From a virus: a stretch of 64,000 nt of DNA. The stretch's first letter is position 1. Each line of letters begins with the position of its first letter. Made by a program: the position numbers and the translations under genes. A model generated the notes under the pieces. That model was given only the letters and a program-made list of their open reading frames with translations, was not told where the DNA came from and made no database searches. Where the stretch lies: IMG/VR virus record IMGVR_UViG_3300025687_005582, positions 24,267-88,266 of that record. One strand, given 5' to 3'. Below are positions 5,553 through 59,063 of this stretch, piece after piece.

Positions 5553-5920
5553 TGTTCATTTATATTGTATTAATCATATCCCTTATATTAAACGCACTTT
5601 TGGGTTGGTATATATCAAGGATACTGCAAAAGTTTATGTTTATCTCGGACAACATGTCTGATTTGTTTTTGACCACAAAAGCATTTCATGTGTTCGTAAA
5701 GAATATGTATAGCATGGATTCATTTCATGGAGAGCCAATCATTCAAGAGTTGGTGTTTCGTATAAAAGAAGTAAATGAAGAAATGTCCAATTTTAGAGAT
5801 ATATTTGAATATACAATAGACGCCGAATTGGATCAAGAACTAGAGGAAGCGCTAAATGCCGAGGAAGAAGAGCAAGAAAAATCATTACTTTACGCAGGTT
5901 CACGAAGACGCAATAGTTAA
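5552..5920 (+). CDS. Small membrane protein with acidic C-terminus
   Basis: 122 residues. Residues 2-22 form one strong hydrophobic helix with few flanking charges, so it is probably anchored in the inner membrane with the rest cytoplasmic (inference). The C-terminal third is strongly acidic with coiled-coil character (residues 75-110). The last 65 nt overlap the start of the late sigma factor in another frame. No family recognised. Confidence 0.65.
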   Translation: MFIYIVLIISLILNALLGWYISRILQKFMFISDNMSDLFLTTKAFHVFVKNMYSMDSFHGEPIIQELVFRIKEVNEEMSNFRDIFEYTIDAELDQELEEALNAEEEEQEKSLLYAGSRRRNS

Positions 5921-6542
5921 GTATGCCCTGACAAATGACAGGGAGCTGCGATCTAAGTTGTACGAAGAGTACATACAGCCTGCATTTGACGATATGGTAG
6001 ACAAGATAATCTACACGTATCGTTTTACCACATTGCCAAACATTGACTATCTCAGAGCAGATTGCAAGGTTTGGCTTACAACAATCCTAAACAAATATGA
6101 TCCTAATAAGGGCTCCAAAGCTTTTTCATATTTCTCGGTTGTAACAAAGAACTGGTTTATTCATAAAGTCAAAAGAACTAAGAAGCGTCTACAAACAGAA
6201 GTCTTTATGGAGGATGTTCTGAATGAGATGGATGAAAACCTAGTATCTGAGGAGCCTAACTATTTTGACAAAAGATCAGAAGTTGAATTTTGGATATCTC
6301 TCAGCAATGAGATAGAGACTTGGGATTCATTTATGATAAAAGAAAACGAGAAGAAGGTTCTTATGGCTGTTCGTATTCTTTTAGACTCTGCTGATCAAAT
6401 AGAAATTTTCAACAAAAAAGCTATTTACTTATATCTTCGCGAGATAACTGGGTTAAATACCAAGCAAGTTGTAAATAACCTTAACAAGCTTCGCAAGAGG
6501 TACAGGACGTTTAAGACAAAATGGGAAAACAGCGAGATCTAA
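5856..6542 (+). CDS. gp55-like late-transcription sigma factor
   Basis: 228 residues (T4 gp55 is 185). AFSYFSVVTKNWFIHKVKR (about residues 89-107) is the sigma region-2-like segment typical of gp55 homologues in T4-like marine phages, preceded by a helical region with YDPNKGSKAF. Family role (established for T4): binds host RNA polymerase core, recognises the late -10 element and needs the sliding clamp for activation. The ATG at 5856 has a GAGGAAG ribosome site and sits 65 nt inside the previous gene. It likely recognises the CTATTTA sites listed here (inference). Domain 4 is absent, as expected for gp55. Confidence 0.8.
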   Translation: MPRKKSKKNHYFTQVHEDAIVKYALTNDRELRSKLYEEYIQPAFDDMVDKIIYTYRFTTLPNIDYLRADCKVWLTTILNKYDPNKGSKAFSYFSVVTKNWFIHKVKRTKKRLQTEVFMEDVLNEMDENLVSEEPNYFDKRSEVEFWISLSNEIETWDSFMIKENEKKVLMAVRILLDSADQIEIFNKKAIYLYLREITGLNTKQVVNNLNKLRKRYRTFKTKWENSEI

Positions 6543-18899: not shown

Positions 18900-21800
18900 A
18901 TGAGCATCAAAAAGTATTTTGAAGTAGCTGAAAGCATCAAGGCTCTTTCAGGGAAAACGGCAGATGAAATCGCTTCACAAGTAGAATCTGTTGGGTATCA
19001 CGAAGAAGATATAATAGAAGAAGAAAGATTTATTCCAAGAGTAGACTTTTCTAAGCCCGAAAACTTTGCTCGCTATGGGTCAGCCGAAGAATACTATGAC
19101 CAAGCTATCAAAAGAATCTACAACGAATTTCCTTACGATGGCTCTCTAAGAGAAAGATTACAGTGGGAGAATGAATCCACTTATATTGATTTATACATCT
19201 ACAACAATCGATACCCAAGAACTAATGGATATGCAATTGTTTCTGCAGATGGATGGGGAACACAAGCATCTATAACTGATGGGTACGGCTTACCAGATGA
19301 TTTAGAATACATTTTTGTAAAAGGTGGCCCGAATGCTAATCCAAATGGCATGTCGCCAAAATCAGTTAACTTTACAGGCTCCAACTATTATGAGCCATCT
19401 AAGAACAGAGGGTCGAACCTAGAATTCGATCTAGCATCGCAAGGTGCTTCTATTGAGTTTTGGTTAAACAAGACTGAGTTTGTTACTGCTTCAACTGAAA
19501 AAGAAGTTCTGTTCGATCTTTGGAATGGCGAAAACTCATCGTCAGCAGATTATGTTCGTTTTACATTAGAGCTTTCAGGTACCGCTGACGGAACAGACCC
19601 ATTCTTACTTACAGTTTTCTCGGGCTCAACAGGATTTTTCCAGCAGCCAATCGCTGCTACTACATTTACAACCTCTTCTGTAGCGGATTCCAACTGGCAC
19701 CACTATGCTGTAACAGTTAAATCTGCATCTGCTGGCGTTACCACACGATTCTATGTTGATGGTAATCTCAACAACGAGACCATATTAGGCTCTGCCGGCA
19801 TAGACGACACAGACTCTTCAAGTCTACGTGCGTACATTGGTGCCCTCATTGCTGCACCTTCTGGCTCTTCCGCATCAGCGGGAGCAGGTAAGCTTTCCGG
19901 TTCTCTTGATGAGTTGAGATACTGGAAGACACAAAGATCTTCTAAAGAAATCGGACGTTTTTGGTTTACGCAAGTTGGCGGTGGCGTAAATACGGATCCA
20001 ACTCCGTTTACAACAACCGAGGAGTCAGCAAACGTAGACCTAGGTGTTTACTTCAAGTTTAATGAAGGCATCACGGGAAGAACATCAACAGATAGCACTG
20101 TTCTTGATTACTCTGGTCGCTTCTCTAACGGTTCGTGGACTGGATACACAACCAACTCAAGAAACACAGGCTCAGCGATTGTATTGTCTAATGCTGCCAT
20201 TAGTGAATACCAAGATCCAATCATCTACTCTTTCCATCCAGCCGTTGTTTCGTTAGCATCTGAGTTGCAGACATCTGGTTCGGCCCACGATGTCAATAAC
20301 AATGCTGCTGTCTACAACTCCATTCCTTCATGGATTACAGAGGAAGATTCAGAGGGCGAGAAGAACACAAAGTATCTAACACAGATTATTTCAAGTTACT
20401 TTGATACTCTGCATCTACAAATCGACAGTCTAAACCACTTAAAGGATATTCAATACCCCAGTGGTAGTGATAAACCGCTTCCATTTGCAGAGAAACTTCT
20501 TTCTTCTTACGGATTTGTGGCGCCAGAGATTTTCCTAGATACCGATGTGTTAGAGAAGTTGGCCGATAGAAGTGAAGATAAAGTCTATGAAAAGTCACTT
20601 CACGACATCAAGAACATTATATACCAGAACATTTACAACAACTTAAACTACATCTACAAGTCTAAAGGCACCGAAAAAGCATTTAGAAATCTTATTCGTT
20701 GTTTTGGTATTGATGATGAGCTAATAAAACTCAATATGTACGCGGATAACGTACAGTATGAGCTTCAAAGCAACAGAAGAAACATCATTGTTGGCGACAA
20801 GTTTGCTAACTTCAACACAGCAGCTGGTAAAAGCGCGAATGTGTACAACTACACCGACACATCAAACGTTAACTCTGTAGGATTTATTACCTCTAGCGTA
20901 TCTCTAACTGGTGGATATGCCACAACTTTAGAGGCTGAGATTCTTTTCCCACTAAAGCAAGATGAATCTTCTATTGTTTATGTTGATACGAACACAATCA
21001 GTGCCTCCTTGTTTGGTGTACACGGCACAGTCGATTCAGGCACCGACACTACATGGGCGACTTCTGACGATGTTAACTTCCAAGTATATGCCGTAAGAGA
21101 TGAGCTTCGGTCATCAAACGTTAGATTTGTTCTCACCGGAACGGCTGGTGGGCATGTTCCAGAACTTGTTTCTTCGTTGTATGAGGATGTCTACAACAAC
21201 ACAAGATGGAACTTATCTGTCAGAATAAGACCAGATCAGTTCCCGCTAACAGGACTTGTTGATGGTACAAATAGCGATTATGTTATTGAACTTCATGGTG
21301 TTCAAGCCGATGCCGGCGTAATTCTTGAAGAGTTTACTGTAACAGGGACGATTTCTAATCCTCCCGCAGCGTTCCTAACAAGCAGCAAAAGAGCATACGT
21401 AGGCGCGCACAGAACAAACTTTACCGGAACTGTACTTCAAACATCGGATGTAAAAGTCAATGCTTGTAGATACTGGCTTGATTATGTTGAGGATGATGCC
21501 CTAAGAGGACACATTCTTGATACAGAAAATCACGGTGCCCTTCAGCCGCATTTATATGCGTATCCGTTTAACCCATCTGCTTCTTTTGGGGATATAACAA
21601 AACTTGATACCCTAGTGTTCAACTGGGAGTTCCTCAACAACACGGGCTCAGATGCTAGTGGTCAGTTTATTGTGGACGACATTAGTTCTGGATCTGCCGC
21701 CTTTACAAGATTTGGAGATTTAGGAAACATCCTAAACAAGCAGTATACTGCTAGAGGCGACTTCTTTGAAGCTTCTTCCACAAAAGCAATCGACAAAGAC

Positions 21801-24800
21801 TTCGTTGTATCATCAAGACTAAATCTTCCCGAGAACATCCAATCACAGGATATGGTTCGTGTACTTGGAGCAGAAGATCAGGACGTTTTCACAACCGAAT
21901 CACGCCCAATAAACTACTTCTTCGCATTTGAGAAGAGCATGTATCAGACCATCTCTGAAGAGATGATCAACAACTTCGCTACTATGAGGGACTTACACAA
22001 CCTTATAGGCGATCCTGTAGAGCGTTGGCGCCCAGAATACAAGCAAATGAAGTTTGTGCGTCAGAAGTTCTTTGAGAAGGTTGGAAATGATGAGCTAGAT
22101 TTCGACAAGTTCTATGAGTTCTACAAGTGGTTTGACTCTTCATTATCCGTAATGCTTGGCCAGCTAGTACCAGCCTCAGCTGACTTTTCCAATAATGTAA
22201 GAACTGTTATTGAGAACCACGTACTAGAGAGGCCAAAATATCAAAACAAGTTTCCGTTCCTACAGAGACAAGGAGCAACAGATATTGAAGGGTCCGTCGA
22301 TGGCTCCAATGCTTCAGGTGATGTTGATTCTAGTCCAGATGACTTCCCGGCTGGAGCATCATTCTTCTCTAACAGAGCGCTAACAAAAAGACAGATCGGC
22401 TCCTCTAACTACACTCAGACAAAGAAGTGGGAGTTTTTACATTCTCCACTACCAACAGAATCTGAAAACAAGAATCTTCCTTGGCAGAGATACAAGAAAG
22501 AAACATCCAACTCTGATCGGGCTGGAATTTTAGCGGCTGTAGAATCTGGTTACAGAAGAAGATTAGGATCTCCTGTAAAGTTTGCAGCTGAAGGTCAAAC
22601 AGCAGTCGGTGGTGTAGCCAGACACCAAAGCAATAAGCCTAACTTTACGTTTGAGGCAACCCAGCCTTACGGTCCCACAGTTACGGCAACGAATATTCCA
22701 AAGAATATTATGCTTTCATTTGATGTTGATGTAGAAGAACTTATCGAGACGCCAGATGTTTACTATCCGACTCTAAAGCAACGTCTTGGTTTCGGATTGA
22801 ACCCGTCAATCAATAGGGGAGATAACGACAAACTTAAGTTTGATGGTAATATGTATGCGCCGTTCAGCTTGTACAGTTCTTCTGTTACAACTGGCTATAA
22901 CTCTAAGGTTGTAAGAGACTACAAATCTGGCGTAACGGTTACAAACCTTCACAATGACTTTGTTAATAGCACAGACACATCCTTGCAGGGTCCGTTCACA
23001 GAGAAGTTTGTTGGCGGTAGATATTACCGACATACAGAAATCAATGACGGAACAGACACAAGAGAGTCAAGAGCAGAAGGTTTCCGTTTAGCGCTTGGTC
23101 TCGACCCAAGTAGCTCTAACATCCCTCCCGGCGCCTCTGGAGCCCTTGGAGTGATTCCGCCAAACTATCCGTTCCTTGATTCACCGGCAGGTTCTGCGCC
23201 TTTAGGATGGCTTCCAGAGCTTCCTACGGCACAACGCTTCCGCGACGAAACTGCAAAGCGTCCCGTAAACATCAAGAACATTTTGATGACGACTGCTTCT
23301 GTTGGAACACGTCTTTCCGGAACGATTGTTCACAACCAAATCGGTAACTACCAAAAGAACTATCAAGTTGTTCAGACTGCTGGCAGAACTGCAAATGATA
23401 TATATTTCCGTGAGCAAACATTTAGTTTCGCTCCAAACCCGGAAACACTTGCGACAAGAGGGCGCTTCCCGCTTTATTATGCCTTTACGCCTGCAGTAAA
23501 AGCGACAGGTCAGATCGCAATTAAGGCGAATCCCCCATCATCATCCGTTCAGGCTCTTGAAATACCATTTTTAAGAAACGATGGAGTTGTTCAAAACATA
23601 GCAATCTTTTTTACAAGTGCCCCAGCACCCACTGATTTCTCAGGCTATCCAACCATAATTGTGCAACGTCAGGGCTCAGCAGCCGACACCGGTACTGAAC
23701 TAGCCAGCGCTTTGAGCCACTCTCCTTTCGGAACTACTTTCGGCGGCAACGCCACCGCCCTCGGAACCGGCGAGATAGTCTCACTAACACAAGGTCTTGG
23801 CGGCACAGCGGGCAATACGGAGATTACAGATGACGGTTCTGGAAATTTTGATTTGACTTCTTTTGCCGGTGGCACTGAAGCCATACCAGACACCGGAGAA
23901 GACAACGCTAATACAGGCGGCAATCTAAACTACGAACTTCCGAACAGAGATGGAGTCAACTCGAACGAAACAGTTATTGTTAACCGTTTTGCTGGATGTG
24001 GTTATGAAGTTATGTCTCGTGGATACATGGATCCAGCACACGAAGAGTTGTCTGTTTACAATGTTTTGCCTTACCGCAATCTTTCTGTTAGAGATTACGG
24101 CCTACAAGGATCTGCATCTGTCGATGTGACAGCTGGCAGAACAATCACTGTTGTAGATCAGATTGGAAAGAATCGTGGTCTTAACCAAAGAGCCTCACTC
24201 CACGCTGGACCGTTTGGTTCTGATGCTGCATATGGTTCAGTTCCAGAGCTAACATACGTTACAACACCATCTTGGCACAAGACAAACAGAAACCGTCGTC
24301 GCAGAATAGAGTTGTCTGGCGCAACATACATCACAGCGTCCGTATACGATAATCTCTTTGTTCAGCACGCGATCCCGCGTTCTACACAGCAATACTCTTG
24401 GGTAACTGCATCGTTGGCTGAGGGTCAGATTATCTACGGCAACGATAGACCATCTTGCTTTAGCGCAAGTGTCTTAAGTCAACTAATCGTTAGTGGTACA
24501 AACTATGATGATTTGACTTTCGTAGGCTTGACTACAAGAGGTAAAGATCCAATATCTGCCTCTACTCACAATCAAGGATTCCCTCTATCAGTAGCGAATC
24601 AGGCACAAGCTTACAGCAACTTTGATTACCTCGGCGCTCCACCATTTGCCCCGGGGACTGATTATTTTAACTTTATAACCATAATGCGCAACGGCCCATA
24701 CGGATACCCAACTTGGAAGCAAATCCGTGCTGGCGAGACAAAGATTGGTAGAAAGCTAAGAGAAACAAACCAGATTGGATACCCAGTTCCGCCAAAGAGA

Positions 24801-27710
24801 CTTTTTGATTATGATTTGGGCGAAGGTCCCTCTGTCGGTTTGAGACCTAACAGTTTCAGAGATTTTACAGAATCACCAGTATCTCTTAACTCTTCTCCAA
24901 TAACTTTCATTTTGGAAGACAACACAGAAGATTCTGATGCCTCTAACAACATGGTTGTGACTGTTCCGTTTAGAAATGAGATTGATTACTTCTCGCATGA
25001 AGAGTTGAACAATTTCTATGGTCTAAAATCTGATGTAAGTAGACTGAAGGCTTACAGAACTGTACTAGATTACACGCTAAGCAGCAGCCTTAGCACAGTA
25101 GTATCTTACACAGAAAGTCTATACCCATCAGATATCAACATGTTTGACGATAGAGTTCGTAGAAGAACTAACTACTCGATCACAGATATCTGGGACGACG
25201 ATAGAACAAAGCGTTCTGATACATACGGAGGTAAGGAAAACTCTCAGGGATTAGCTATACCTTCTGCCTCTACATGGCCGCTTGATGGGCACCTAAACTT
25301 TGCCTCCACTTCATCAGTTAGAATCGATGATGGTGCAGGCGAACTAATGAACTTCTACACTTCTTACTCAGGTAGTGTTGCTGGAGCATCAAAAATCAAC
25401 GTAGGTGCGACTTACGCTTTACGTGTTGCTGCGGGCCGAGCAGGATCAAATGATGCATATGCTGGTGACGCCCTATGGGAAGCAGGTACACAATCAGGCA
25501 AGAAGCCATATGAAAACTACTCTACATATGCTGAAAAGATTGCTCTCGTAGGCAAAGATCACTCTATTGTTCCGGAGTTTAGAATAAGCGAACTCATAGA
25601 AACATATGTAGAAGATAATGAAGGCGATTTCTTAGCTGATATCGATAATGTCTTTAATCTAACTGGTGCAGCAATCAGTGACAGCTCTCAGACAAATTTT
25701 TACAAAACTTACTCAAACTCTGATTTCTTAAAATATTTCTCTGTTGTAGACGAGGATCTCAATGGTCAGCGCTCAGGAGATCTTAAGATTCAAAGAGATA
25801 AAGTATCACTTCGTTGCAACGCACTTCTTAAGTTCCTGCCATACAAAGGATTCTATCCTGCTGAACGTACTTTAGAGTTAGCAACGTTACTTTCGCAATC
25901 TTACTTTACAGATAAGTTAAATGTAGAAACGAATGACTATAGATTAGCTTCTAGAATAATAAGCCAACCACTTTTTGCCCCAGGCATTATGCATAACACG
26001 ATCAAATCTGGAATCGCGGTTGGTAACTGGATTTTGACGAACACTTCTTCAGCAGGCTCGCTCCCAACCCCGGTTTATGAGACTGGTAGCGTTACAGTAT
26101 TGCCTGAAGGAAATATAGAATTTAGAAGACTCTTGAACGTAAATACTACAACAACAGATGTCGCTAGAGGCTGGACGGCACAAAAACTTCCTTTCGAAGC
26201 GATATACAAGCCATCTGCATACTTCAATAGAGAGTATGTTACTGGCAGTCTGTTATACGATAAGTTTTACGAACTTGCTGCGGAGGCTGAAAGCCCAAGC
26301 ATCAAGAATGATCACGGTCCTTTAAGTCCGGATTTAAGAGGTACAAAACTTTACGAGTTTGCCATTGATAACTTCTTGTGCGAAACAGTTGAGTTCTTCA
26401 ACGACAGACTCACTTCGATAAGATCCAGAAGAGAAGACGAATTTGCTTCCGTCGTAAGCGGCAATGTATATCAAATGAAAATGAAGTTTTATCGCCCTCT
26501 TACTACCGGTTCTATTACTTCTGATCCAGAAGTCGATAGAGCCAAGTTTGATATGTACACGAGAGTATCGGCATTCGGGTGGCCTTTGGCGGCAGGGCCC
26601 TCTACCAACGTTGCCCGCCGTTCCTCGGGTAGCTTCTCTCACTTGACAAGTCCTGCGTATGCCGGAAAGGGCGAGGTTACATTTACTTATACAGCCCCTT
26701 CTAATGGTCAGCCTTCGTTAGACCAAATATTTGCAAACACAACATTAAGTTTCTCTAGAGATGAAACAGTTGCTCATATTCCCTCTTTATTGGCGCCGCC
26801 AGATTATGATCCAACGATGCAAATGGATAGTTGCTTTAACCTTTTGGATTTCTACACAGATGTTCCAGATAATACTGTTACACAAAAGAAGAGGTGGCTG
26901 ATTCAATCTAAGTTTGAAACTCCAGTTCTAAACCTTGCTGGAGTTGACTTTACGACCCCACCAGCAACAACGGTAAGCGCTGGAACAAGCAGTGCCGATC
27001 AGATTTCTTTGAGAGGTCTATGGCATCAATATGGTTCCGTCCCAACAGCATCAGATGCTGGCTTCTTTGTAGCCATTGAAGATGCTAGTGGAGAATCGCT
27101 AGCAGACGTAGTCGGAATGCCTACAAATGCAACATTCAGAGTTGGCTCTGTAAAGAAGCAGAATCTTCTTGAAGAGGCTGTTGTCGCCGTTCCATTTAAG
27201 ACTGTTAACAACAGAAGAAAGTTCTTCGGCATCAACGACAGCAACGCTGAATACGACAACATTAAGAGAAATCTTGAGAAGTATGTGTTCCCGCCAAAGT
27301 TTGACTTCCTAACAAACGATACGGTAGATCCAATCTTGATGTATGCATTTGAGTTCTCAGCAAAGGTCACGCAACAAGACATCGCAGATATGTGGCAAAA
27401 CTTGCCACCTGATATTAATGAAAAGTTTGAGCAAAAAGAAGTTGTTATAGACGACAAGCAAGTTCTTGACTTATTAATCAACAACTCAGAAGATATTCAG
27501 TGGATGGTATTCAAGGTCAAGAAGCGCGCCAAGAAATCTTTCGAGAAGTACAGAAGGTCTTTGGTCACAGAAGATACAACCGCATTTGAAGATACAATAG
27601 GACCATACTCTTACAACTGGCCATACGATTACTTCTCTCTTGTAGAACTAGTTAAGATTGACGAAACGGTACAGTATGCGTCGGCTGACGTGGCGGGTGA
27701 TGATTCATAA
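18900..27710 (+). CDS. Giant baseplate/tail protein with LamG-like domains (2936 aa)
   Basis: One uninterrupted frame of 8.8 kb. After a helical N-terminus (1-150) there is a LamG/concanavalin-like jelly roll at about 160-350 (SIEFWLNKTEF, DSNWHHYAVTV, FYVDGNLNN, LDELRYWKTQRS). A second, weaker jelly roll lies at about 665-870 (TTLEAEILFP, YVGAHRTNF, NACRYWLDYV). Residues about 1538-1663 form a separate module of richer GC with LTQGLGGTAGNTEIT. The last 300 residues are helical and acidic/basic mixed. By position after gp25-gp6 it could take the place of T4 gp7 (1032 aa) and peripheral baseplate parts, but no gp7 motif was recognised. LamG domains suggest glycan contact at the cell surface. 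Confidence 0.7.
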   Translation: MSIKKYFEVAESIKALSGKTADEIASQVESVGYHEEDIIEEERFIPRVDFSKPENFARYGSAEEYYDQAIKRIYNEFPYDGSLRERLQWENESTYIDLYIYNNRYPRTNGYAIVSADGWGTQASITDGYGLPDDLEYIFVKGGPNANPNGMSPKSVNFTGSNYYEPSKNRGSNLEFDLASQGASIEFWLNKTEFVTASTEKEVLFDLWNGENSSSADYVRFTLELSGTADGTDPFLLTVFSGSTGFFQQPIAATTFTTSSVADSNWHHYAVTVKSASAGVTTRFYVDGNLNNETILGSAGIDDTDSSSLRAYIGALIAAPSGSSASAGAGKLSGSLDELRYWKTQRSSKEIGRFWFTQVGGGVNTDPTPFTTTEESANVDLGVYFKFNEGITGRTSTDSTVLDYSGRFSNGSWTGYTTNSRNTGSAIVLSNAAISEYQDPIIYSFHPAVVSLASELQTSGSAHDVNNNAAVYNSIPSWITEEDSEGEKNTKYLTQIISSYFDTLHLQIDSLNHLKDIQYPSGSDKPLPFAEKLLSSYGFVAPEIFLDTDVLEKLADRSEDKVYEKSLHDIKNIIYQNIYNNLNYIYKSKGTEKAFRNLIRCFGIDDELIKLNMYADNVQYELQSNRRNIIVGDKFANFNTAAGKSANVYNYTDTSNVNSVGFITSSVSLTGGYATTLEAEILFPLKQDESSIVYVDTNTISASLFGVHGTVDSGTDTTWATSDDVNFQVYAVRDELRSSNVRFVLTGTAGGHVPELVSSLYEDVYNNTRWNLSVRIRPDQFPLTGLVDGTNSDYVIELHGVQADAGVILEEFTVTGTISNPPAAFLTSSKRAYVGAHRTNFTGTVLQTSDVKVNACRYWLDYVEDDALRGHILDTENHGALQPHLYAYPFNPSASFGDITKLDTLVFNWEFLNNTGSDASGQFIVDDISSGSAAFTRFGDLGNILNKQYTARGDFFEASSTKAIDKDFVVSSRLNLPENIQSQDMVRVLGAEDQDVFTTESRPINYFFAFEKSMYQTISEEMINNFATMRDLHNLIGDPVERWRPEYKQMKFVRQKFFEKVGNDELDFDKFYEFYKWFDSSLSVMLGQLVPASADFSNNVRTVIENHVLERPKYQNKFPFLQRQGATDIEGSVDGSNASGDVDSSPDDFPAGASFFSNRALTKRQIGSSNYTQTKKWEFLHSPLPTESENKNLPWQRYKKETSNSDRAGILAAVESGYRRRLGSPVKFAAEGQTAVGGVARHQSNKPNFTFEATQPYGPTVTATNIPKNIMLSFDVDVEELIETPDVYYPTLKQRLGFGLNPSINRGDNDKLKFDGNMYAPFSLYSSSVTTGYNSKVVRDYKSGVTVTNLHNDFVNSTDTSLQGPFTEKFVGGRYYRHTEINDGTDTRESRAEGFRLALGLDPSSSNIPPGASGALGVIPPNYPFLDSPAGSAPLGWLPELPTAQRFRDETAKRPVNIKNILMTTASVGTRLSGTIVHNQIGNYQKNYQVVQTAGRTANDIYFREQTFSFAPNPETLATRGRFPLYYAFTPAVKATGQIAIKANPPSSSVQALEIPFLRNDGVVQNIAIFFTSAPAPTDFSGYPTIIVQRQGSAADTGTELASALSHSPFGTTFGGNATALGTGEIVSLTQGLGGTAGNTEITDDGSGNFDLTSFAGGTEAIPDTGEDNANTGGNLNYELPNRDGVNSNETVIVNRFAGCGYEVMSRGYMDPAHEELSVYNVLPYRNLSVRDYGLQGSASVDVTAGRTITVVDQIGKNRGLNQRASLHAGPFGSDAAYGSVPELTYVTTPSWHKTNRNRRRRIELSGATYITASVYDNLFVQHAIPRSTQQYSWVTASLAEGQIIYGNDRPSCFSASVLSQLIVSGTNYDDLTFVGLTTRGKDPISASTHNQGFPLSVANQAQAYSNFDYLGAPPFAPGTDYFNFITIMRNGPYGYPTWKQIRAGETKIGRKLRETNQIGYPVPPKRLFDYDLGEGPSVGLRPNSFRDFTESPVSLNSSPITFILEDNTEDSDASNNMVVTVPFRNEIDYFSHEELNNFYGLKSDVSRLKAYRTVLDYTLSSSLSTVVSYTESLYPSDINMFDDRVRRRTNYSITDIWDDDRTKRSDTYGGKENSQGLAIPSASTWPLDGHLNFASTSSVRIDDGAGELMNFYTSYSGSVAGASKINVGATYALRVAAGRAGSNDAYAGDALWEAGTQSGKKPYENYSTYAEKIALVGKDHSIVPEFRISELIETYVEDNEGDFLADIDNVFNLTGAAISDSSQTNFYKTYSNSDFLKYFSVVDEDLNGQRSGDLKIQRDKVSLRCNALLKFLPYKGFYPAERTLELATLLSQSYFTDKLNVETNDYRLASRIISQPLFAPGIMHNTIKSGIAVGNWILTNTSSAGSLPTPVYETGSVTVLPEGNIEFRRLLNVNTTTTDVARGWTAQKLPFEAIYKPSAYFNREYVTGSLLYDKFYELAAEAESPSIKNDHGPLSPDLRGTKLYEFAIDNFLCETVEFFNDRLTSIRSRREDEFASVVSGNVYQMKMKFYRPLTTGSITSDPEVDRAKFDMYTRVSAFGWPLAAGPSTNVARRSSGSFSHLTSPAYAGKGEVTFTYTAPSNGQPSLDQIFANTTLSFSRDETVAHIPSLLAPPDYDPTMQMDSCFNLLDFYTDVPDNTVTQKKRWLIQSKFETPVLNLAGVDFTTPPATTVSAGTSSADQISLRGLWHQYGSVPTASDAGFFVAIEDASGESLADVVGMPTNATFRVGSVKKQNLLEEAVVAVPFKTVNNRRKFFGINDSNAEYDNIKRNLEKYVFPPKFDFLTNDTVDPILMYAFEFSAKVTQQDIADMWQNLPPDINEKFEQKEVVIDDKQVLDLLINNSEDIQWMVFKVKKRAKKSFEKYRRSLVTEDTTAFEDTIGPYSYNWPYDYFSLVELVKIDETVQYASADVAGDDS

Positions 27711-45384: not shown

Positions 45385-46968
45385 ATGGCTGCGCTTACAA
45401 AGCAAGAGATACTAAAAGAGATTGTTAAAGCCGGCAAAGATCCGGTTTACTTTACAACAAACTACTGTCGCATCTCACACCCGCAAAAAGGTTTAATTCC
45501 TTTCAAAGCATTCGAATATCAGCAGGATCTTTTAAAAGACTTCCGCGATTATCGTTTTAATATTATTCTAAAAGCCCGACAGTTGGGCATTTCTACTATT
45601 AGTGCTGCGTATGTGGCGTGGCTGATGTTGTTTCACAAAGACAAAAACATCCTTGTTGTTGCTACCAAGCTACAAACTGCCACAAACTTGGTTAAAAAAG
45701 TTAAGTCTATCATCAAGAACCTGCCGCAATGGATGCAGATTTCTGATATTACAGTAGATAACAGAACATCCTTTGAACTTTCTAACGGTTCGCAGATTAA
45801 AGGCTCATCAACATCTGGCGATGCTGGTCGTTCCGAGGCACTTTCGCTTCTAATCATCGATGAGGCTGCTCACGTTGAGAAGTTAGAAGATCTATGGACT
45901 GCGCTTTACCCCACACTATCCACAGGTGGTCGTTGTATTGCGCTATCAACTCCCAACGGTGTAGGTAACTGGTTCCACCAAAACTGTGTTGAAGCAGAAG
46001 CAGGCTTAAATGACTTTCATATGACGACCCTTATGTGGGACGTTCATCCAGAGCGAGACAAGAAATGGTTCGAGAAAGAAACCAGAAACATGTCCAAGCG
46101 CCAGATCGCTCAGGAGTTAGAATGTAACTTCAACGTTTCTGGTGAAACTGTTATCCACCCAGATGATCTACAATGGTATTTGGAAAAAGCTTGCACACCA
46201 GAGTACCGCACTGGCTTTGATAGAAACTATTGGATCTGGAAACAATACAACCCAGAAAACCATTATTTGATTGTTGCCGACGTTGCTCGTGGCGACGGTA
46301 AAGATAACAGCGCTTTTCACATTATAGAACTTGCAAACCTTGAACAGGTAGCTGAATATGTCGGCAAACCAACACCAGACGACTTTGCAGACATTCTTTC
46401 TAATGTGGCAGCTGAATACGGCAACCCTATGTTGGTGATAGAAAACAATAATATTGGCTTTGCTGTTCTTAAAAAGTTGATCGATAAAGGGTATCCTAAT
46501 CTCTACTACACAACAAAGGGTGATCACCAATATGTTGATCCTCTAACCGCACAATGGCAATCAAACGTAATACCCGGTTTTACAACTTCTTCCAAAACAA
46601 GACCTTTGATCGTTGCGAAAATGGAAGAGTTTATGAGAAATAAACTAATTACGATTAACTCAAATCGTTTGCTTTCCGAAATGAAAACATTTATTTGGCA
46701 TCACGGAAGACCGCAAGCAATGAGAAGTTATAACGACGATCTAACAATGTCGTTCGCTATTGGATGCTGGGTAAGAGACACCGTGATTGTAGAAAGTCAA
46801 AAGAACGTAGAGTACAGCAAATCTTTCTTGTCTGCTATCAGCACGGCAAAAACATCTATTTCTACAACGATCCCTGGTATGCAGGGGCACAAGATGACGA
46901 AAGAAACCGAGCGTGTTGAAAAGGCGAAAGAGCTTCAATACCAATATATAGGATTACTAAAAGGCTAG
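45385..46968 (+). CDS. Large terminase subunit (gp17-like)
   Basis: 527 residues (T4 gp17 is 610). ATPase: adenine-binding FEYQQDLL (43-50), Walker A-like KARQLGIST (63-71), Walker B LLIIDEAAH (155-163) with D159/E160, and coupling motif LSTPNGVGN (187-195). Nuclease: IVADVARGDGKD (about 296-307, D299), VIENNNIGFAVLKKL and a late NDDLTMSFAIG acidic motif. It powers DNA translocation into the prohead and cuts the concatemer. Followed by the portal gene 8 bp downstream, the classical order. No small terminase was identified with confidence nearby. Confidence 0.95.
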   Translation: MAALTKQEILKEIVKAGKDPVYFTTNYCRISHPQKGLIPFKAFEYQQDLLKDFRDYRFNIILKARQLGISTISAAYVAWLMLFHKDKNILVVATKLQTATNLVKKVKSIIKNLPQWMQISDITVDNRTSFELSNGSQIKGSSTSGDAGRSEALSLLIIDEAAHVEKLEDLWTALYPTLSTGGRCIALSTPNGVGNWFHQNCVEAEAGLNDFHMTTLMWDVHPERDKKWFEKETRNMSKRQIAQELECNFNVSGETVIHPDDLQWYLEKACTPEYRTGFDRNYWIWKQYNPENHYLIVADVARGDGKDNSAFHIIELANLEQVAEYVGKPTPDDFADILSNVAAEYGNPMLVIENNNIGFAVLKKLIDKGYPNLYYTTKGDHQYVDPLTAQWQSNVIPGFTTSSKTRPLIVAKMEEFMRNKLITINSNRLLSEMKTFIWHHGRPQAMRSYNDDLTMSFAIGCWVRDTVIVESQKNVEYSKSFLSAISTAKTSISTTIPGMQGHKMTKETERVEKAKELQYQYIGLLKG

Positions 46969-46976
46969 GATAGAAA

Positions 46977-48944
46977 ATGGCTAAGAACAAGAACAACCCA
47001 AGAAATCCGGCATCGCCGTTATTCAAAAGACTAACCAGACTTCTATCTGGCCCAGTTGTAAACTATCGTACACAAGTTGCGAGACAAGAAAGAAGAGCAG
47101 ATCTAGATAAGTATCGTTATCGTTTCCGTTCTATGTCTGGTCAGGAGTTCAAGAGACACGATTCTAACATGTCTCAGAACTACAACCTTTACACATCAGC
47201 CGCATTCCGTAACCAAAACAGAGCAGAGCGTTACATTGACTTTGAGCAAATGGAATACATGCCCGAGATTGCTACAGCGTTAGACATCTATGCCGATGAG
47301 ATGACGACATCAAACGAGTATGATCGTCTTCTAAACATTGATTGTCTTAACCACGAAATCAAGACTATCCTTGAGTCTTTATTCTACGACGTTCTAAACA
47401 TTGAGTTTAACTGCTTTGGTTGGGCGCGTTCAATGTGTAAGTATGGCGACTTCTTCCTTTATATGGACATCGATGAGAAGCTAGGTATTACATCTCTTAT
47501 TGGTATGCCTAACAACGAAGTAGAGCGCCTTGAAGGTCAGGACCAAACAAACCCTAACTATGTTCAGTATCAGTGGAACGGTGCTGGTATGACCTTTGAG
47601 AACTGGCAGGTTGCGCACTTTCGCATTTTAGGCAACGATCGTTATTCACCATACGGTACATCCGTTCTAGACCCAGCCCGCCGCATTTGGCGACAGCTAA
47701 CACTTCTAGAAGATGCGATGATTGCTTATCGCGTTGTTCGTGCGCCAGAGCGCCGAGTATTCAAGATTGACGTAGGCAACATTCCGCCACAAGACATTCC
47801 ACAATATATGGAAAAAGTCAAGTCAGAAATGAAGCGCAACTCTCTTGTAAATTCTACAACTGGTCGTGTGGATCTTCGCTACAATCCGCTATCACTTGAA
47901 GAAGATTACTTTATTCCGATGCGTGGTGGCGTTGGATCGGAGATTACATCGCTCCCTGGCGCCAAGTCTTTGGACGACATTGAGGATGTTAAGTATCTTC
48001 GTGATAAGTTGTTCGCAGCAATCAAGATCCCACAGTCTTATCTAACCAACCTTGAAGGCGGGACAGAAGATAAGACTACTCTAGCACAGAAGGATATTCG
48101 TTTCGCAAGAACTATTCACAGACTTCAAAGATCGTTGGTTTCCGAATTGGAGAAGATGGCGATAGTTCATCTTTACACATTAGGTTTCAGAGGTCAAGAT
48201 CTTTTGGGCTTCAAGATTACACTAAATAACCCTTCGCGTCTTGCGGAGCTACAGCAGCTTGAATACATGAAGACAAAGTTCGAGACTGCTACATCAGTTC
48301 CAGAAGGCACGTTTTCAAAGCGTTGGGTTGCTTCCAACATTCTTGGAATGTCTGATTCCGAGTTCCTTCGTAATCAGCGCGAAACTTTCTATGATCGCAA
48401 ATACCAGCAGTCTCTTGAGTCAGTTGTTGACGAAGGCGCTGAGCTTGGTGGCGAAGAAGGCGGGGGCCTCGGAGGAGATCTCGGCGGTGATTTGGGCGGC
48501 GATCTTGGTGGAGACCTTGAAGGCGATCTTGGCGGTGACATCGATCTCGGTGGTGACGAAGGTGGCGCAGAGGCAGGAGGCGGCGAAGAAGACGTTTTAT
48601 TAGCAACCCCGGGTCGTAGGGAAGATAATCCTACAAGACACGAGGGAGCGGCTTACAAGCCTGTTGATGTCGATAAAAGAAAAGGCTCTTCAACAAGACA
48701 CTCACAGGGTCCGATGAGACGCGAAATCAAGCGAATGGTTCGCGGACCAGAGATGGGAACAACCTCCAGAACTGTCCATCCAGGCAAGCTTGGTATGCCT
48801 GATTTCAGATCGCTTGTTGGTCTGGAAGAGAAAGTTCAGCCTACTTATAATAGAGACGAAAGAACTCTTTTCGAGAACACCAATAAAGTTCGTATGTTAG
48901 TAGAACAAATGGAGAGCAAAGAGGAAGAGAAAAATGAAGCATAA
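46977..48944 (+). CDS. Portal protein (gp20-like)
   Basis: 655 residues (T4 gp20 is 524). MEYMPEIATALDIYADEMT (about 91-109), PFG-like NDRYSPYGTSVLDPARRIWRQL, YRVVRAPERRVFKIDVGN, and the IKIPQSYLT...EDKTTLAQKDIRFARTIHRLQ segment are the gp20 family's core. It forms the dodecameric vertex through which DNA passes and docks the terminase. The C-terminus is longer than in T4 because of a Gly/Asp repeat (about residues 488-539) and a basic tail. It overlaps the next gene by 11 nt. Confidence 0.93.
   Translation: MAKNKNNPRNPASPLFKRLTRLLSGPVVNYRTQVARQERRADLDKYRYRFRSMSGQEFKRHDSNMSQNYNLYTSAAFRNQNRAERYIDFEQMEYMPEIATALDIYADEMTTSNEYDRLLNIDCLNHEIKTILESLFYDVLNIEFNCFGWARSMCKYGDFFLYMDIDEKLGITSLIGMPNNEVERLEGQDQTNPNYVQYQWNGAGMTFENWQVAHFRILGNDRYSPYGTSVLDPARRIWRQLTLLEDAMIAYRVVRAPERRVFKIDVGNIPPQDIPQYMEKVKSEMKRNSLVNSTTGRVDLRYNPLSLEEDYFIPMRGGVGSEITSLPGAKSLDDIEDVKYLRDKLFAAIKIPQSYLTNLEGGTEDKTTLAQKDIRFARTIHRLQRSLVSELEKMAIVHLYTLGFRGQDLLGFKITLNNPSRLAELQQLEYMKTKFETATSVPEGTFSKRWVASNILGMSDSEFLRNQRETFYDRKYQQSLESVVDEGAELGGEEGGGLGGDLGGDLGGDLGGDLEGDLGGDIDLGGDEGGAEAGGGEEDVLLATPGRREDNPTRHEGAAYKPVDVDKRKGSSTRHSQGPMRREIKRMVRGPEMGTTSRTVHPGKLGMPDFRSLVGLEEKVQPTYNRDERTLFENTNKVRMLVEQMESKEEEKNEA
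48471..48560 (+). repeat. Degenerate 12-bp repeat encoding GGDL in the portal gene
   Basis: About seven copies of a GGxGGxGAxxTx unit in frame, encoding (GGDL)n-type repeats. The third positions vary, so the peptide rather than the DNA is maintained. It lies in the C-terminal extension of the portal. No spacers of CRISPR type. Confidence 0.75.
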
Positions 48945-50611: not shown

Positions 50612-50617
50612 ATTTAT

Positions 50618-50652
50618 GTGGGGGTGAAAGCCCCCACGTTAAATCTTTTTTT
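50618..50652 (+). terminator. Rho-independent terminator before the protease gene
   Basis: Perfect 7-bp GC stem GTGGGGG (50618-50624) / CCCCCAC (50631-50637) with the 6-nt loop TGAAAG, then GTTAAATC and seven T (50646-50652). It would separate the portal-side transcript from the protease transcript unless anti-termination acts. No clear promoter was seen in the 12 bp between it and the protease ATG, so some read-through is likely. Confidence 0.75.
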
Positions 50653-50664
50653 GAGAGAACAACA

Positions 50665-51264
50665 ATGGCTAAACTACTACGAGAATTTTATGAACTATGT
50701 GAAGGTGGCGTCTGCCAAGACCTTCTAACCGAATCTGAAAAGCAGTTTGTTCGCGACGGCGGAATGATGCTAACAGGCAAGCTACAAGAAGCAGAGGTTC
50801 AGAACGGAAACGGACGTGTATATCCTCGCTCTGTATTAGAAAGAGAAGTTAAGCGATACGCAAAGGTCGTTGAGGACCGCCGTGCTCTTGGCGAGTTAGA
50901 TCACCCAGATTCTTCTATTATTAATTTAGCCAACGTGTCCCATATGATTACAGAGGTTTGGATGGACGGGCCAGCCGTAATGGGCAAATGTAAAGTTCTC
51001 GACACTCCATCCGGCCAGATTCTACGTGCCCTTGTAGATTCGGGTGTTAAGATTGGCATTTCTTCCCGTGGTATGGGATCTGTAAGCGAGAGAATGGGTA
51101 AGACCATCGTGGAAGATGATTTTCAGTTGATTTGTTTTGACATTGTTTCAGAGCCATCAACACCAAATGCTTTTATGGCTCTGTCCGAGGGGAAACTCGT
51201 AAATGAGCAAATTGAAAAAAATAATAAGATTATTACTCTTATGAATGAAATTATTGGAGATTAA
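50665..51264 (+). CDS. Prohead maturation protease (gp21-like)
   Basis: 199 residues (T4 gp21 is 212). GELDHP gives H80, ISSRGMGS gives S133/S134, and FDIVSEPS carries D159. These match the His-Ser site of gp21-type prohead proteases. NGNGRVYPRSVLEREV (about 47-62) is the family's first conserved block. The enzyme cleaves scaffold, capsid and internal proteins after (I/L)xE during maturation (established for T4). It likely acts on the leaders of the small proteins encoded just downstream and on the capsid protein. It follows a terminator by 12 bp. Confidence 0.9.
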   Translation: MAKLLREFYELCEGGVCQDLLTESEKQFVRDGGMMLTGKLQEAEVQNGNGRVYPRSVLEREVKRYAKVVEDRRALGELDHPDSSIINLANVSHMITEVWMDGPAVMGKCKVLDTPSGQILRALVDSGVKIGISSRGMGSVSERMGKTIVEDDFQLICFDIVSEPSTPNAFMALSEGKLVNEQIEKNNKIITLMNEIIGD

Positions 51265-51267
51265 AAA

Positions 51268-51702
51268 ATGAAAATTTCAGAAGTAAGATTAAAAGAAATC
51301 ATTAAAGAAGAAATTGATGCCGCCGTAGAGGAAGGCTTGCTAGATAGACTTAAAGCTCGTGCTGCTAGCGCCAAAGGGAAAGCAGCCAGCGCTGCATCCA
51401 AATTGGGCGCTAAAGCTGCCGGCGCACTTGGAGCCTCCAGCGCCGCCGCTGAACTTGAGCGTGCAGCTGCAGCGAGAAAAGGTGCCGCTCAAGACAGAGA
51501 AGTGGAGGTGTTGAGAAACTCACTAGGCAAAAGAATAAAAAGGGTTCAAGCTCGATTTCAAAAAGAATTAGAAGCTGCTCTTGTTGACGCCACGAAGCTA
51601 GGATTGGATGATAGTAGGGCTGAACAAATAGTTTATGGTGATCTCAACAAAGTAAATCAGGCTCTTAAGCAGGCTGCTGAAACATTGGCTGCAGAGGAAT
51701 AA
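51268..51702 (+). CDS. Ala/Lys-rich candidate internal head protein
   Basis: 144 residues. The leader MKISEVRLKEIIKEEI has an I12-K13-E14 site for the gp21-type protease. Residues 28-75 are an Ala/Lys/Gly-rich segment (KARAASAKGKAASAASKLGAKAA) like histone H1 tails or other DNA-condensing proteins. The rest is a charged helix (95-144). It follows the protease gene by 3 bp. By analogy with T4 internal proteins it could be a processed, DNA-bound head protein, but no homologue is named. GC is higher in the Ala-rich part. Confidence 0.6.
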   Translation: MKISEVRLKEIIKEEIDAAVEEGLLDRLKARAASAKGKAASAASKLGAKAAGALGASSAAAELERAAAARKGAAQDREVEVLRNSLGKRIKRVQARFQKELEAALVDATKLGLDDSRAEQIVYGDLNKVNQALKQAAETLAAEE

Positions 51703-52152
51703 ATGAAAAAGTCGGAGTTCAAAAAACTAATCAAGCCTATTGTTCAAGAGTGTATTAAAGAGTCGCTTCTTGAAGACGGTTTGATTTCCGGCATTATTGC
51801 CGAGGTTGTCAAGGGGATGTCTTCACAAACTATTGTTGAGACAAAAACACCACAACCAAAAGTAGATCCTGTTATGGAAAGAATGAAAGCAAATGCTTTC
51901 AACAAAGAACAGTCCGGCAAACTTCAAGAGCATAAGAAAAAGCTTATGGCTGCTATTGGCGGTTCAGCTTACAACGGTGTTGATTTGTTTGAAGGAACAA
52001 CTCCAGCACCAGCACAAGCGTCCCCAACTGCACAGGCTTCTCCAATGTCCGGACAAAGCCCAAGTGATCCAGGCGTAGATATCTCTAGTCTCTTCGGAGC
52101 AGTAGGCAGAAACTGGAACGCTCATATGAACGAAATGAAAGAAAGAGAGTAA
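51703..52152 (+). CDS. Candidate prohead core/internal protein (149 aa)
   Basis: 149 residues beginning MKKSEFKKLIKPIVQECIKESLLEDG, an amphipathic basic leader with V14-Q15-E16 and I18-K19-E20 as possible protease sites. A second (I/L)xE site occurs at IIAE. The middle is charged and helical; residues 95-125 are Ala/Pro/Ser-rich linker; the end is helical. Such a leader is common in small proteins of marine T4-like phages near the prohead genes (recalled, not searched). It starts directly after the preceding stop. A core or internal protein is the best inference. Confidence 0.55.
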   Translation: MKKSEFKKLIKPIVQECIKESLLEDGLISGIIAEVVKGMSSQTIVETKTPQPKVDPVMERMKANAFNKEQSGKLQEHKKKLMAAIGGSAYNGVDLFEGTTPAPAQASPTAQASPMSGQSPSDPGVDISSLFGAVGRNWNAHMNEMKERE

Positions 52153-52156
52153 TAAA

Positions 52157-52378
52157 ATGGCTGTTAACCTTGAGGTAGTCAAAAGACGCGGCGAGTCAGA
52201 TGAGAAACTAATTCGTCGTTTTAATCGTAAATGCAAAAAACAAAAGATTGTTGAAGAGTACAGAGAAAAAACTGATTACTATGTTAAGCCTTCTATCACA
52301 AAGCGCCTGAAAAGACAGCAGGCTATTCGCGAGCAACAGAAGCGCGTGAGAAAAGAACAAGATAATTTGTTTAGGTAA
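52157..52378 (+). CDS. rpsU: Ribosomal protein bS21 homologue
   Basis: 73 residues, the normal bS21 length. VNLEVVKRRGESDEKLIRRFNRKCKKQKIVEEYREK then YVKPSITKRLKRQQAIREQQKR aligns by eye over its whole length with bacterial bS21: the 'E..d.ALrRFkr.cek.gil.E.r.re.YekPs..rkrk...a.kr' pattern, including the KP(S/T) turn. bS21 is the last-joining small-subunit protein and takes part in mRNA 5'-end engagement at the anti-Shine-Dalgarno site. Viral bS21 genes are known from pelagiphage and marine viromes, so this fits. The gene lies among head genes, so late expression is likely. It may tune host ribosomes to phage mRNAs (inference). Confidence 0.88.
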   Translation: MAVNLEVVKRRGESDEKLIRRFNRKCKKQKIVEEYREKTDYYVKPSITKRLKRQQAIREQQKRVRKEQDNLFR

Positions 52379-52417: not shown

Positions 52418-52822
52418 ATGTCAACTTACAACTACAAACCCGGACTAGGCAATGCCGCTTCTTATCAGGTATCTGGTATACCTTACGTAACAGGTGGAAT
52501 TGATCTATCTGCTGGGGGCGTAACGTCTATAGACTTTCCATCCGTAACAAGTTGGATTGTTGTTAGCGTGGGTGATAACAACACCTGTAATGTTGGCTTT
52601 TCCTCATTGGGTGCTCAAAACGAGAACTACTTAAAGATTACCGGCAATACTGTAAGCCCAAGGTTTGAAATTAAAGCAACTCAGTTACATCTGTCGGGAA
52701 CCTCAGCCGATGTTTCAGTAATGGCTGGCTTGACGTATATTTCTAAAGCAGATATTAACAACGCTGCGGTTTCACCTTCTGGCTCTAACTGGTCTGGCTC
52801 TCTAGCAGCTCTTGTGGGGTAA
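52418..52822 (+). CDS. Small virion protein (134 aa), possible decoration protein
   Basis: 134 residues, Ser/Gly/Asn-rich and beta-structured, few charges: MSTYNYKPGLGNAASYQVSGIPYVTGG then alternating strands. It has its own candidate late promoter and good ribosome site, so it may be abundant. No cysteine except C68-like in NTCNVGF. No family recognised. A small soluble beta-sandwich on the capsid or at the neck is plausible, but there is no direct evidence. Confidence 0.5.
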   Translation: MSTYNYKPGLGNAASYQVSGIPYVTGGIDLSAGGVTSIDFPSVTSWIVVSVGDNNTCNVGFSSLGAQNENYLKITGNTVSPRFEIKATQLHLSGTSADVSVMAGLTYISKADINNAAVSPSGSNWSGSLAALVG

Positions 52823-55991: not shown

Positions 55992-56026
55992 TTTTTGACG
56001 AGCTATCGTGTTTGGAGTTAATTTTT

Positions 56027-57301
56027 ATGTCTTCACTATTAGAAGAGGCGATCGTGGACGCCAAAGCCCTTAAGGAAGCAGCATTGAAGAATGCTGAGAA
56101 TGTTGTATTGGAAAAGTATTCGGGCGAAGTTAAGAAAGCCTTAGATACTTTACTAGAGCAAGAAGAACTAGAAGAGGGTGGCGAAGACGAGACTCTTACA
56201 GAGTTCACAGACGATGTTCCTTACGCATTTCAGAACGAAGAGTTAGATGCTTTAGAAGAAGACGAAATTGTTGAGATTGATTTTGATGCTCTCAAGGCTC
56301 GTTTAGAAAAGGAAGATGAAGTTGTTGAGGAAGAAGACCTTAACGATGCTCTAGAGATGGCTGACGATATGGCTGGTGGCGAGATGGCCCCAGAGCTTGA
56401 AGCTTCTGCCGAGGAAGATACTGCCGAACTAGGTGCAGAGCCAGTCGAGCCACTAGAAGAAGGCAAAGACCGTTTCATTATCATGAAGAGCAGCCGAGCC
56501 CTGGACGACGGCAAAGCGCAGCCAAGCAACGCTTATTCCAACCCCGCAACCACTAAGAAGGCTGGTGTGAAGGCTGGACACGTTTACGACTCCAAAGAAG
56601 CCGCAGAGAAAGATGCCAAAAAGCTGGGAGACGCCAACCCGGTGGGCTTCACAGTTGTGAAACTGGCTAGCAAGGATCTAGATGAAGATCTCGATCTATC
56701 CGGACTTTTTATTGAAGAATTAATAGAAGAGCTTGTTGTTGATATGGATACATCACCAGCAGGCTTCTCTTCACTCGGTGGCGCTTACAATAGTGTGATG
56801 CAAGCAAATAATGATGCTATTGCAGCTGCTAAGGAAGCACACCTTGAGGAAGAAGAGGAAGAGGAGATTGAAGAAGATACCGCACCAGATGTTGTGCCGG
56901 TTGAACTTCATGAGGCAAAGATCTCCAAACTTACAGAATCTAACAGAGAGCTTCGTGCTCTCATTGTTGAAGCAAAGGATCAACTTACAAAGTTGAATCT
57001 TGATAACGCCAAGCTTGTTTATCAAAACAAGGCTTTGAATAGCGCCTCCTTGAATGAGCGACAAAAAGCACAAATTGTCGAAGCTGTTCAATCTGCCAAT
57101 TCTGTTGAAGAAGCAAGTATGATTTTTGAAACAATTCAAAACGCAGTGGGGAACACTCCTGATCAGAGAACACGTCCACAAACACTACGTGAAGCGGTTC
57201 AAAGACCTACGTCGCTTTTGATCAATTCTAAGAGAAACAACGAGGCAACTAAGGATCCAGCAATGGGTCGTATGCTGCGTTTAGCAGGTTTGAATAAATA
57301 A
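56027..57301 (+). CDS. Prohead core scaffold protein (gp22-like)
   Basis: The ATG at 56027 with GGAG upstream is chosen over an in-frame TTG at 56012, giving 424 residues (T4 gp22 is 269). Extremely Glu/Asp-rich and helical, with many (L/I)xE sites for the protease; the C-terminal SANSVEEASMIFETIQNAVGN...MLRLAGL block is typical of gp22-type scaffolds before the capsid gene. Residues about 148-216 (DRFIIMKSS to FTVVKLA) differ: a compact, basic, GC-richer segment that looks like an inserted small domain. It forms the core inside the prohead and is degraded before packaging (family knowledge). Confidence 0.8.
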   Translation: MSSLLEEAIVDAKALKEAALKNAENVVLEKYSGEVKKALDTLLEQEELEEGGEDETLTEFTDDVPYAFQNEELDALEEDEIVEIDFDALKARLEKEDEVVEEEDLNDALEMADDMAGGEMAPELEASAEEDTAELGAEPVEPLEEGKDRFIIMKSSRALDDGKAQPSNAYSNPATTKKAGVKAGHVYDSKEAAEKDAKKLGDANPVGFTVVKLASKDLDEDLDLSGLFIEELIEELVVDMDTSPAGFSSLGGAYNSVMQANNDAIAAAKEAHLEEEEEEEIEEDTAPDVVPVELHEAKISKLTESNRELRALIVEAKDQLTKLNLDNAKLVYQNKALNSASLNERQKAQIVEAVQSANSVEEASMIFETIQNAVGNTPDQRTRPQTLREAVQRPTSLLINSKRNNEATKDPAMGRMLRLAGLNK

Positions 57302-57332: not shown

Positions 57333-59063
57333 ATGTCTATTGTACAAAGATTGACAGAGGGTATCGTCAATCGTGATCTCGCCAAGGAGGGTGCTGCACT
57401 TATCAACAAGTGGGAGCAGACCGGTCTTCTTGAGGGCATCTCTGACGATACAAAGAGAAACGGTATGGCCCGTTTGCTTGAGAATCAGGCAAAGGAGCTT
57501 CTCCGTGAGTCTTCCAGCATGGCTGCTGGTGACGTAGAGGGTTTTGCCGCTGTTGCATTCCCACTTGTACGCCGTGTATTCGGTTCCTTGATCGCTAACG
57601 ATCTCGTAAGTGTTCAGCCAATGAGCCTTCCATCAGGTCTCATTTTCTTCCTTGACTTTAAGTACGGTGGTGTCTTCGGCAGCACAGCTGATCGTCTTGG
57701 AAACGTATTCGATACATCACTCTACGGTGGTGGGCGAGTTGGTTCCCAGATCACCGGTGGTGTTCTTCTAACCGGAGTAAACGCTGAGCGTGGTCCTTAC
57801 GCACTTAACAACGGTTACTCTTCACCAACAGGTTCGATTACTATCACAACTACAATCCGCGCATCTGGCTCTGTCGGTGCAAACGGTGAGTTCCTCGCAG
57901 ACGCAGGATCCACATCTGGTTACGATGGCGTCGATATGCTACAGTTCGATCCGGATCTAGTTTCCGGATCCGAGGTTGCAATTGCTACAATTCCGAAGTC
58001 TCAGTTGACAACAGGTCAGTTTAACTTTGACGATTTTGTTGCTATTACTGTTGCTGAAGGTGCTGCTCCTGCCCTAGCGAATGGTCGCTTGGTTCGCCGC
58101 CTCACACGCGAAGACGATCAGAACGCAGATCTTGTTCTTCTTATCGTTAATGCTTCTGGCTCTGAGAAGGCACCATTACTCTCTAGCTCTCTAAACGCCG
58201 TAACCACCTGCACAGCTCCTATCAAGGATGACTTTATTACCGGTGGTTCCATTGGTTCCGTTGTTGGTGATCAGACATGGGGTCTTGAGGGAAGTGAACA
58301 AATCCCAGAGATCGACATCAAGGTCGATTCCGTAGCAGTCACAGCTGTAACCAAGAAGCTCAAGGCTAAGTGGACACCAGAGTTGGGTCAAGACCTCAAC
58401 GCTTACCACAACCTTGACGCTGAGGTTGAGCTTACTCAGATTCTTTCTGAGCAGATTGCTCTTGAGATCGACCGCGAGATCCTTGAGGATCTTATACGTG
58501 GTGCGACAGCCGGTACACGTTACTGGTCCCGTCTCCCAGGTCAGTTCTTGAACCGTCTAACTGGTGCTGTTTCAGCTACAACCCAGGACTTCACTGGTAA
58601 CGTATCTGAGTGGTACGAGACTCTCGTTGAAACAATCAACGAGGTTTCTGCTGAGATCCACCGTAAGACTCTTCGTGGTGCTGCAAACTTTGTGGTATGC
58701 TCCCCAGAGGTTGCTAACATCCTTGAGTTCACAGCTGGCTTCCGTGCAAACGTTACAGCCGATGCTGACCGTGGTGATATCGGTGCTGTTCGCGTTGGTT
58801 CCCTCTCCAAGAAGTTTGATGTTATGGTTGACCCATACTTCCCACGTCAGTTGATCCTCGTTGGTCGACGTGGCTCCAGCTTCCTTGAGAGCGGCTACGT
58901 GTACGCACCTTACGTACCACTACAGACCACACCAACAATCTTCGGTGTAGAGGACTTCGTACCTCGCAAGGGTGTCATGACCCGTTACGCCAAGAAGATG
59001 GTCCGTCCAGACATGTACGGCTTGGTTATTTGTAGAGGTCTTGTTGAGAACCCAACAAGCTAG
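57333..59063 (+). CDS. Major capsid protein (gp23-like)
   Basis: 576 residues (T4 gp23 is 521). FPLVRRVFGSLIANDLVSVQPMSLPSGLIFFLDFKYG (about 76-112) is the hallmark block of gp23. The N-terminal 59 residues are a helical leader ending LLRE (L57-R58-E59), the likely protease cleavage site before SSSMAAGD. The C-terminus has the FVVCSPEVANILE and PYFPRQLILVGRRG segments. A GGAGGT ribosome site, the best of any large gene here, and many C-ending codons fit very high expression. It is followed by a strong terminator. Confidence 0.96.
   Translation: MSIVQRLTEGIVNRDLAKEGAALINKWEQTGLLEGISDDTKRNGMARLLENQAKELLRESSSMAAGDVEGFAAVAFPLVRRVFGSLIANDLVSVQPMSLPSGLIFFLDFKYGGVFGSTADRLGNVFDTSLYGGGRVGSQITGGVLLTGVNAERGPYALNNGYSSPTGSITITTTIRASGSVGANGEFLADAGSTSGYDGVDMLQFDPDLVSGSEVAIATIPKSQLTTGQFNFDDFVAITVAEGAAPALANGRLVRRLTREDDQNADLVLLIVNASGSEKAPLLSSSLNAVTTCTAPIKDDFITGGSIGSVVGDQTWGLEGSEQIPEIDIKVDSVAVTAVTKKLKAKWTPELGQDLNAYHNLDAEVELTQILSEQIALEIDREILEDLIRGATAGTRYWSRLPGQFLNRLTGAVSATTQDFTGNVSEWYETLVETINEVSAEIHRKTLRGAANFVVCSPEVANILEFTAGFRANVTADADRGDIGAVRVGSLSKKFDVMVDPYFPRQLILVGRRGSSFLESGYVYAPYVPLQTTPTIFGVEDFVPRKGVMTRYAKKMVRPDMYGLVICRGLVENPTS

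Follow-up and report, generated by a model that had tools for sequence, protein, structure and literature searches.

Viral copies of the ribosomal protein bS21 have been described in ~1,300 genomes and contigs, and the bS21 of pelagiphage HTVC008M was shown to be incorporated into E. coli ribosomes; in vitro, the protein output of ribosomes carrying the tagged pelagiphage bS21 was ~5% of the control (Mizuno et al., 2019, PMC6375957). bS21 was subsequently located inside the region of terminase large subunit (TerL), portal, protease and major head protein (MCP) in 47 phage genomes, structural neighbours were found in 388 out of 900 published bS21 phages, and in some phages bS21 is co-expressed with late structural genes (Chen et al., 2022, PMC9723584). 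The conserved region in that study is not one operon, with bS21 on the opposite strand. The same authors proposed the mechanism considered here, i.e., that viral bS21 biases host ribosomes to phage mRNAs. The initial annotation of the locus described below regarded the placement of bS21 in a late head unit as not established; it has already been published for hundreds of phages (Chen et al., 2022, PMC9723584), and in the cultured Microcystis phage Mel-JY01 an RpsU is annotated in the corresponding position and orientation. Placement and proposed role are thus in the literature, and a single locus repeats the published picture. What is added here is the near-fixation of bS21 in one viral lineage, its strict pairing with a small upstream gene (51703-52152), the same-strand arrangement, and a lineage-typical Lys at position 27 (K27). 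At stake is whether replacement of a single exchangeable protein is enough for a virus to re-specialise the ribosomes of its host; scattered acquisitions are a less clean test of this than a lineage in which bS21 is near-fixed, has a nearly constant neighbour and lies in the head cassette.

The DNA analysed (the window) is a 64 kb stretch of an 88,266-base IMG/VR record. On the + strand, positions 52157-52378 span exactly one open frame (73 codons and a stop codon) that encodes a 73-residue bS21 (MAVNLEVVKRRGESDEKLIRRFNRKCKKQKIVEEYREKTDYYVKPSITKRLKRQQAIREQQKRVRKEQDNLFR). The protein matches Pfam PF01165 (Ribosomal_S21) with E=1.4e-10 and 41.2 bits, above the gathering score of 27, and the alignment spans bS21 residues 7-60 and profile positions 2-54 of 55. 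It also matches the NCBIfam equivalog TIGR00030 (S21p) at 34.5 bits (cut-off 28.95) and PHROG 21469, "ribosomal protein S21", and its significant matches in the PDB sequence set are bS21 without exception. When the family profile was tested on viral relatives of the protein, 11 out of 11 matched. No second Ribosomal_S21 match occurs in the 88,266-base parent record. An AlphaFold2 model, built with 11 viral relatives as input, has a mean pLDDT of 83 and three helices as in bS21 (residues 15-28, 31-39 and 45-71). Eleven of the 13 structures retrieved with this model by Foldseek are ribosomes (10 mitochondrial, 1 chloroplast), all with E>0.1, as expected for a small and helical protein. The full-length bS21 homologue of the initial annotation is therefore confirmed by an exact open frame and by the profile search that it called for; the structure prediction agrees in its helices, while the Foldseek matches are all weak. 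Judged by these profile matches, 52157-52378 is a true bS21 and its family assignment is secure.

Nearly all window genes are carried on the + strand, and the order of the head unit is TerL, portal, three small genes, protease, the genes starting at 51268 and 51703, bS21, the genes starting at 52418, 52829, 53416 and 55150, a gene in scaffold position, MCP and a neck-type protein. TerL (45385-46968; PHROG 2, E=2.2e-51), the portal protein (46977-48944; PHROG 213, E=4.7e-77), a T4 gp21-type head maturation protease (50665-51264; PHROG 207, E=1.1e-57) and an MCP of T4 gp23 type (57333-59063; PHROG 138, E=2.6e-74) were identified by profile, whereas the probable scaffold (56012-57301) is assigned only by its T4 gp22 position just before MCP. 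All of these lie on the + strand. The neck-type protein is at 59156. Between the protease and the gene paired with bS21 there is an Ala-rich 144-aa protein (51268-51702, +), whose presence varies among relatives. Directly 5' of bS21 lies a gene for a 149-aa protein without assigned function (51703-52152, +), which has a weak match to a PHROG of unknown function and no Pfam match; its relatives share N-terminal MKKSEFKKLIKP..ECIKE and C-terminal GVDI..LFG motifs. Directly 3' is a gene for a 134-aa protein, also without assigned function (52418-52822, +), kept in most relatives and without PHROG or Pfam match. bS21 had been placed between protease neighbours and a "virion gene"; the protease and head-unit setting is borne out, but the label of virion gene for 52418-52822 derives from its position only. 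The gene matching 52829 is present as two adjacent copies in several relatives (L010-L013, L021, L022, L024 and others). Two genes separate bS21 from the protease and five from MCP, i.e., it lies within ten genes of both, the distance taken here to mark a head-cassette bS21 of the kind in Chen et al. (2022). Elsewhere in the window there are a frame resembling tail sheath, from 61438, whose Pfam match falls just below the cut-off, a tail-region open frame of 2,936 residues without PHROG match (18900-27710, +), and genes for an aminotransferase, a sugar nucleotidyltransferase and a sugar epimerase/dehydratase (297-3038, +), likely a surface-sugar module.

We next describe how far this arrangement is conserved. 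Successive searches based on bS21 brought the number of related viral loci from 12 to 27 and then to 113; 80 of these were retained, and the order TerL-portal-protease-51703-bS21-52418 on a single strand is found in most of these ~80 IMG/VR loci. A second sample was selected via a protease alignment to avoid selecting on bS21; this alignment was built from bS21-bearing relatives, so the following counts describe the lineage and not all T4-like phages. Of the 46 protease-selected contigs that extend 4 kb or more 3' of the protease, 45 carry bS21; the gene lies on the head-gene strand in all 60 cases where it was found, and is located between protease and MCP in 21 out of 22 loci that include MCP. 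The exception, locus L146, has protease and MCP with no detectable bS21 between them, which could be natural loss or non-acquisition. In 71 out of 76 loci, the stop of the 51703 gene and the start of bS21 are separated by -1 to 16 nt (4 nt in the window), a spacing that would allow translational coupling. In this T4-like (far-T4) lineage, bS21 belongs to the core of the head cassette and is nearly fixed.

The pairwise dN/dS of bS21 has a median of 0.16 over 103 pairs, with synonymous sites near saturation in many of them, a value indicating that the gene is under purifying selection. bS21 and protease identities are correlated (Mantel r 0.66, 0 out of 2000 permutations), which is consistent with mostly vertical inheritance of bS21. 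Two residues are typical of the lineage: position 27 is Lys in 58 out of 60 relatives whose selection did not use bS21 (E, D or S is found at the equivalent position in the ~10 cellular bS21 sequences compared), and R58, at the position of F. johnsoniae Tyr54, is R in 59 out of 60, so the aromatic residue typical of the Bacteroidetes-phage bS21 clades a-e of Chen et al. is absent. Two other candidates were discarded: an inserted D40 occurs in only ~13 out of 60 protease-selected relatives and is not diagnostic of the whole lineage, and the apparent invariance of Cys26 was partly imposed by the search pattern (23 out of 60 in the protease-selected set). The initial annotation had hoped to find the host donor of the gene. 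No cellular relative turned up in two short-peptide-pattern scans of 84,980 genomes, which lends no support to this idea and led us to reject recent host capture, although a more distant donor may have escaped such patterns. The window bS21 behaves as an old viral gene.

A Shine-Dalgarno-like motif precedes ~60% of the + strand genes compared to a background of 17-19%, which suggests that the host probably uses Shine-Dalgarno initiation, unlike Bacteroidetes. For the bS21 gene itself no clear Shine-Dalgarno site was seen in the window. A weak match to a T4 gp55-type late sigma factor (5856-6542, +; PHROG 234, E=4.9e-06) suggests T4-style late transcription. The gene that follows bS21 was also considered for a T4-type late promoter; this was rejected, as the only nearby TATAAATG (52413) includes the start codon of that gene. 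Scans for sigma-70 promoters and terminators performed no better than on shuffled sequence (6 terminator sites found vs. 6.9 expected). The terminator-like hairpin of 10 pairs just 5' of the protease gene (50616-50639, +; terminator scan) is a possible, weak candidate for the upstream boundary of a protease-bS21 transcription unit.

On balance we consider it reasonably probable that this is a functional, lineage-specific viral bS21, a core gene of the head cassette, which acts by late ribosome exchange favouring late phage mRNAs. The protein would be translated late with the head proteins and move by exchange to the platform of host 30S subunits, next to the anti-Shine-Dalgarno strand, where it would replace or top up host bS21; the resulting ribosomes would initiate efficiently on abundant late phage mRNAs, although the effect may run in either direction and need not be selective. 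The family matches and helical model, the conserved cassette, near-fixation, same-strand location, tight gap to the 51703 gene, purifying selection, the correlation with protease identity and the gp55-type match make this role plausible, as do, by analogy, the published entry of a phage bS21 into ribosomes (PMC6375957) and the co-expression of bS21 and structural genes in other phages (PMC9723584). It counts against late ribosome exchange that the conserved region of Chen et al. is not one operon and has bS21 on the opposite strand (PMC9723584), that ribosomes with pelagiphage bS21 were almost without activity in vitro (PMC6375957), and that bS21 of pelagiphage Mosig is found away from the head genes. 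A more specific version, in which an obligatory, co-translated head-cassette bS21 with a near-invariant charge change in helix 1 is a dedicated late ribosome variant for capsid mRNAs, possibly together with the 51703 protein, is tentative and, we think, unlikely.

Other functions have to be weighed against this reading. Slow-growing infected hosts may be short of bS21, and the phage may simply restore capacity without any selectivity for mRNAs. The loose, exchangeable binding of bS21, the heterogeneous bS21 content of Francisella ribosomes (PMC9578407) and retention of the cellular core motif RRF..KP in the window protein would all fit such supplementation, but a distinct viral type (K27 in 58 out of 60) with no close cellular relative found suggests a specialised function, and we consider plain supplementation unlikely. 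The published in vitro result raises a different possibility, since ~5% activity of ribosomes with pelagiphage bS21 (PMC6375957) means that the effect could be inhibitory: ribosomes that take up viral bS21 would initiate poorly on host messages, so that host synthesis is shut down and phage mRNAs gain no preference, and the near-invariant K27 could alter function in this direction. That assay, however, used a mismatched host, and with its late head-cassette position bS21 would block ribosomes at a stage when the phage still depends on them; a brake on host translation is accordingly improbable in our estimate. It is also conceivable, as suggested by Chen et al. (PMC9723584), that bS21 is packaged in the virion and delivered with the genome, or that its RNA-binding helices act in head assembly with the 51703 partner. 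Its location between protease and MCP and its tight pairing with a conserved small gene would be explained, but the S21 profile is kept over nearly full length, as expected for a ribosome binder, and the N-terminus has no evident extension that would target it to the capsid, which makes a virion or assembly role quite improbable. Finally, regulation of its own operon by binding phage mRNA off the ribosome and tuning head-gene expression, as some ribosomal proteins do, is very unlikely: the gene has a fixed location in the cluster and bS21 autoregulation exists in Flavobacterium, but the Flavobacterium mechanism acts through the ribosome (PMC9976891).

Late ribosome exchange can be set against the known systems as follows. 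The window bS21 shares the RRF..KP core and, as modelled, the helical architecture with cellular bS21 (E. coli rpsU, F. johnsoniae 7JIL), but has K27 instead of E, D or S, and the closest viral sub-clade has one inserted residue (D40). In Bacteroidetes, Tyr54 of F. johnsoniae bS21 blocks the anti-Shine-Dalgarno; the window protein is without Tyr54 and the phage uses Shine-Dalgarno motifs, so the Bacteroidetes mechanism is not directly transferable. In the Bacteroidetes phages, too, bS21 lies in the region of TerL, portal, protease and MCP and is paired with a conserved neighbour (Chen et al., 2022), but there it is on the opposite strand (same strand in 60 out of 60 here), and the Tyr54 position is aromatic where the window protein has R58 (PMC9723584). 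Pelagibacter phages HTVC008M and Mosig (MT647606.1) also carry bS21 of marine T4-like phages. In Mosig it is found near sliding clamp and heat-shock genes outside the head block, so phage bS21 does not generally require linkage to the head genes. The nearest TerL proteins among phage records, 46% identical, are those of Microcystis phage Mel-JY01 and Flavobacterium phage immuto. A small frame after the immuto protease was examined as a candidate S21 and reads as an unrelated acidic protein. The Mel-JY01 bS21 is distant in sequence, and the flanking small genes were not matched to those of the window; tblastn of the window bS21 against 50,697 phage records gave no match, and its likeness to the Mel-JY01 copy is therefore by profile only. 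In gene order the two are similar: in this cultured T4-like phage (PP395634.1) the annotated RpsU is the second gene after the prohead protease, with one gene in between, and stands before the capsid gene on the head-gene strand. Mel-JY01 is a tractable phage whose arrangement resembles that of the window.
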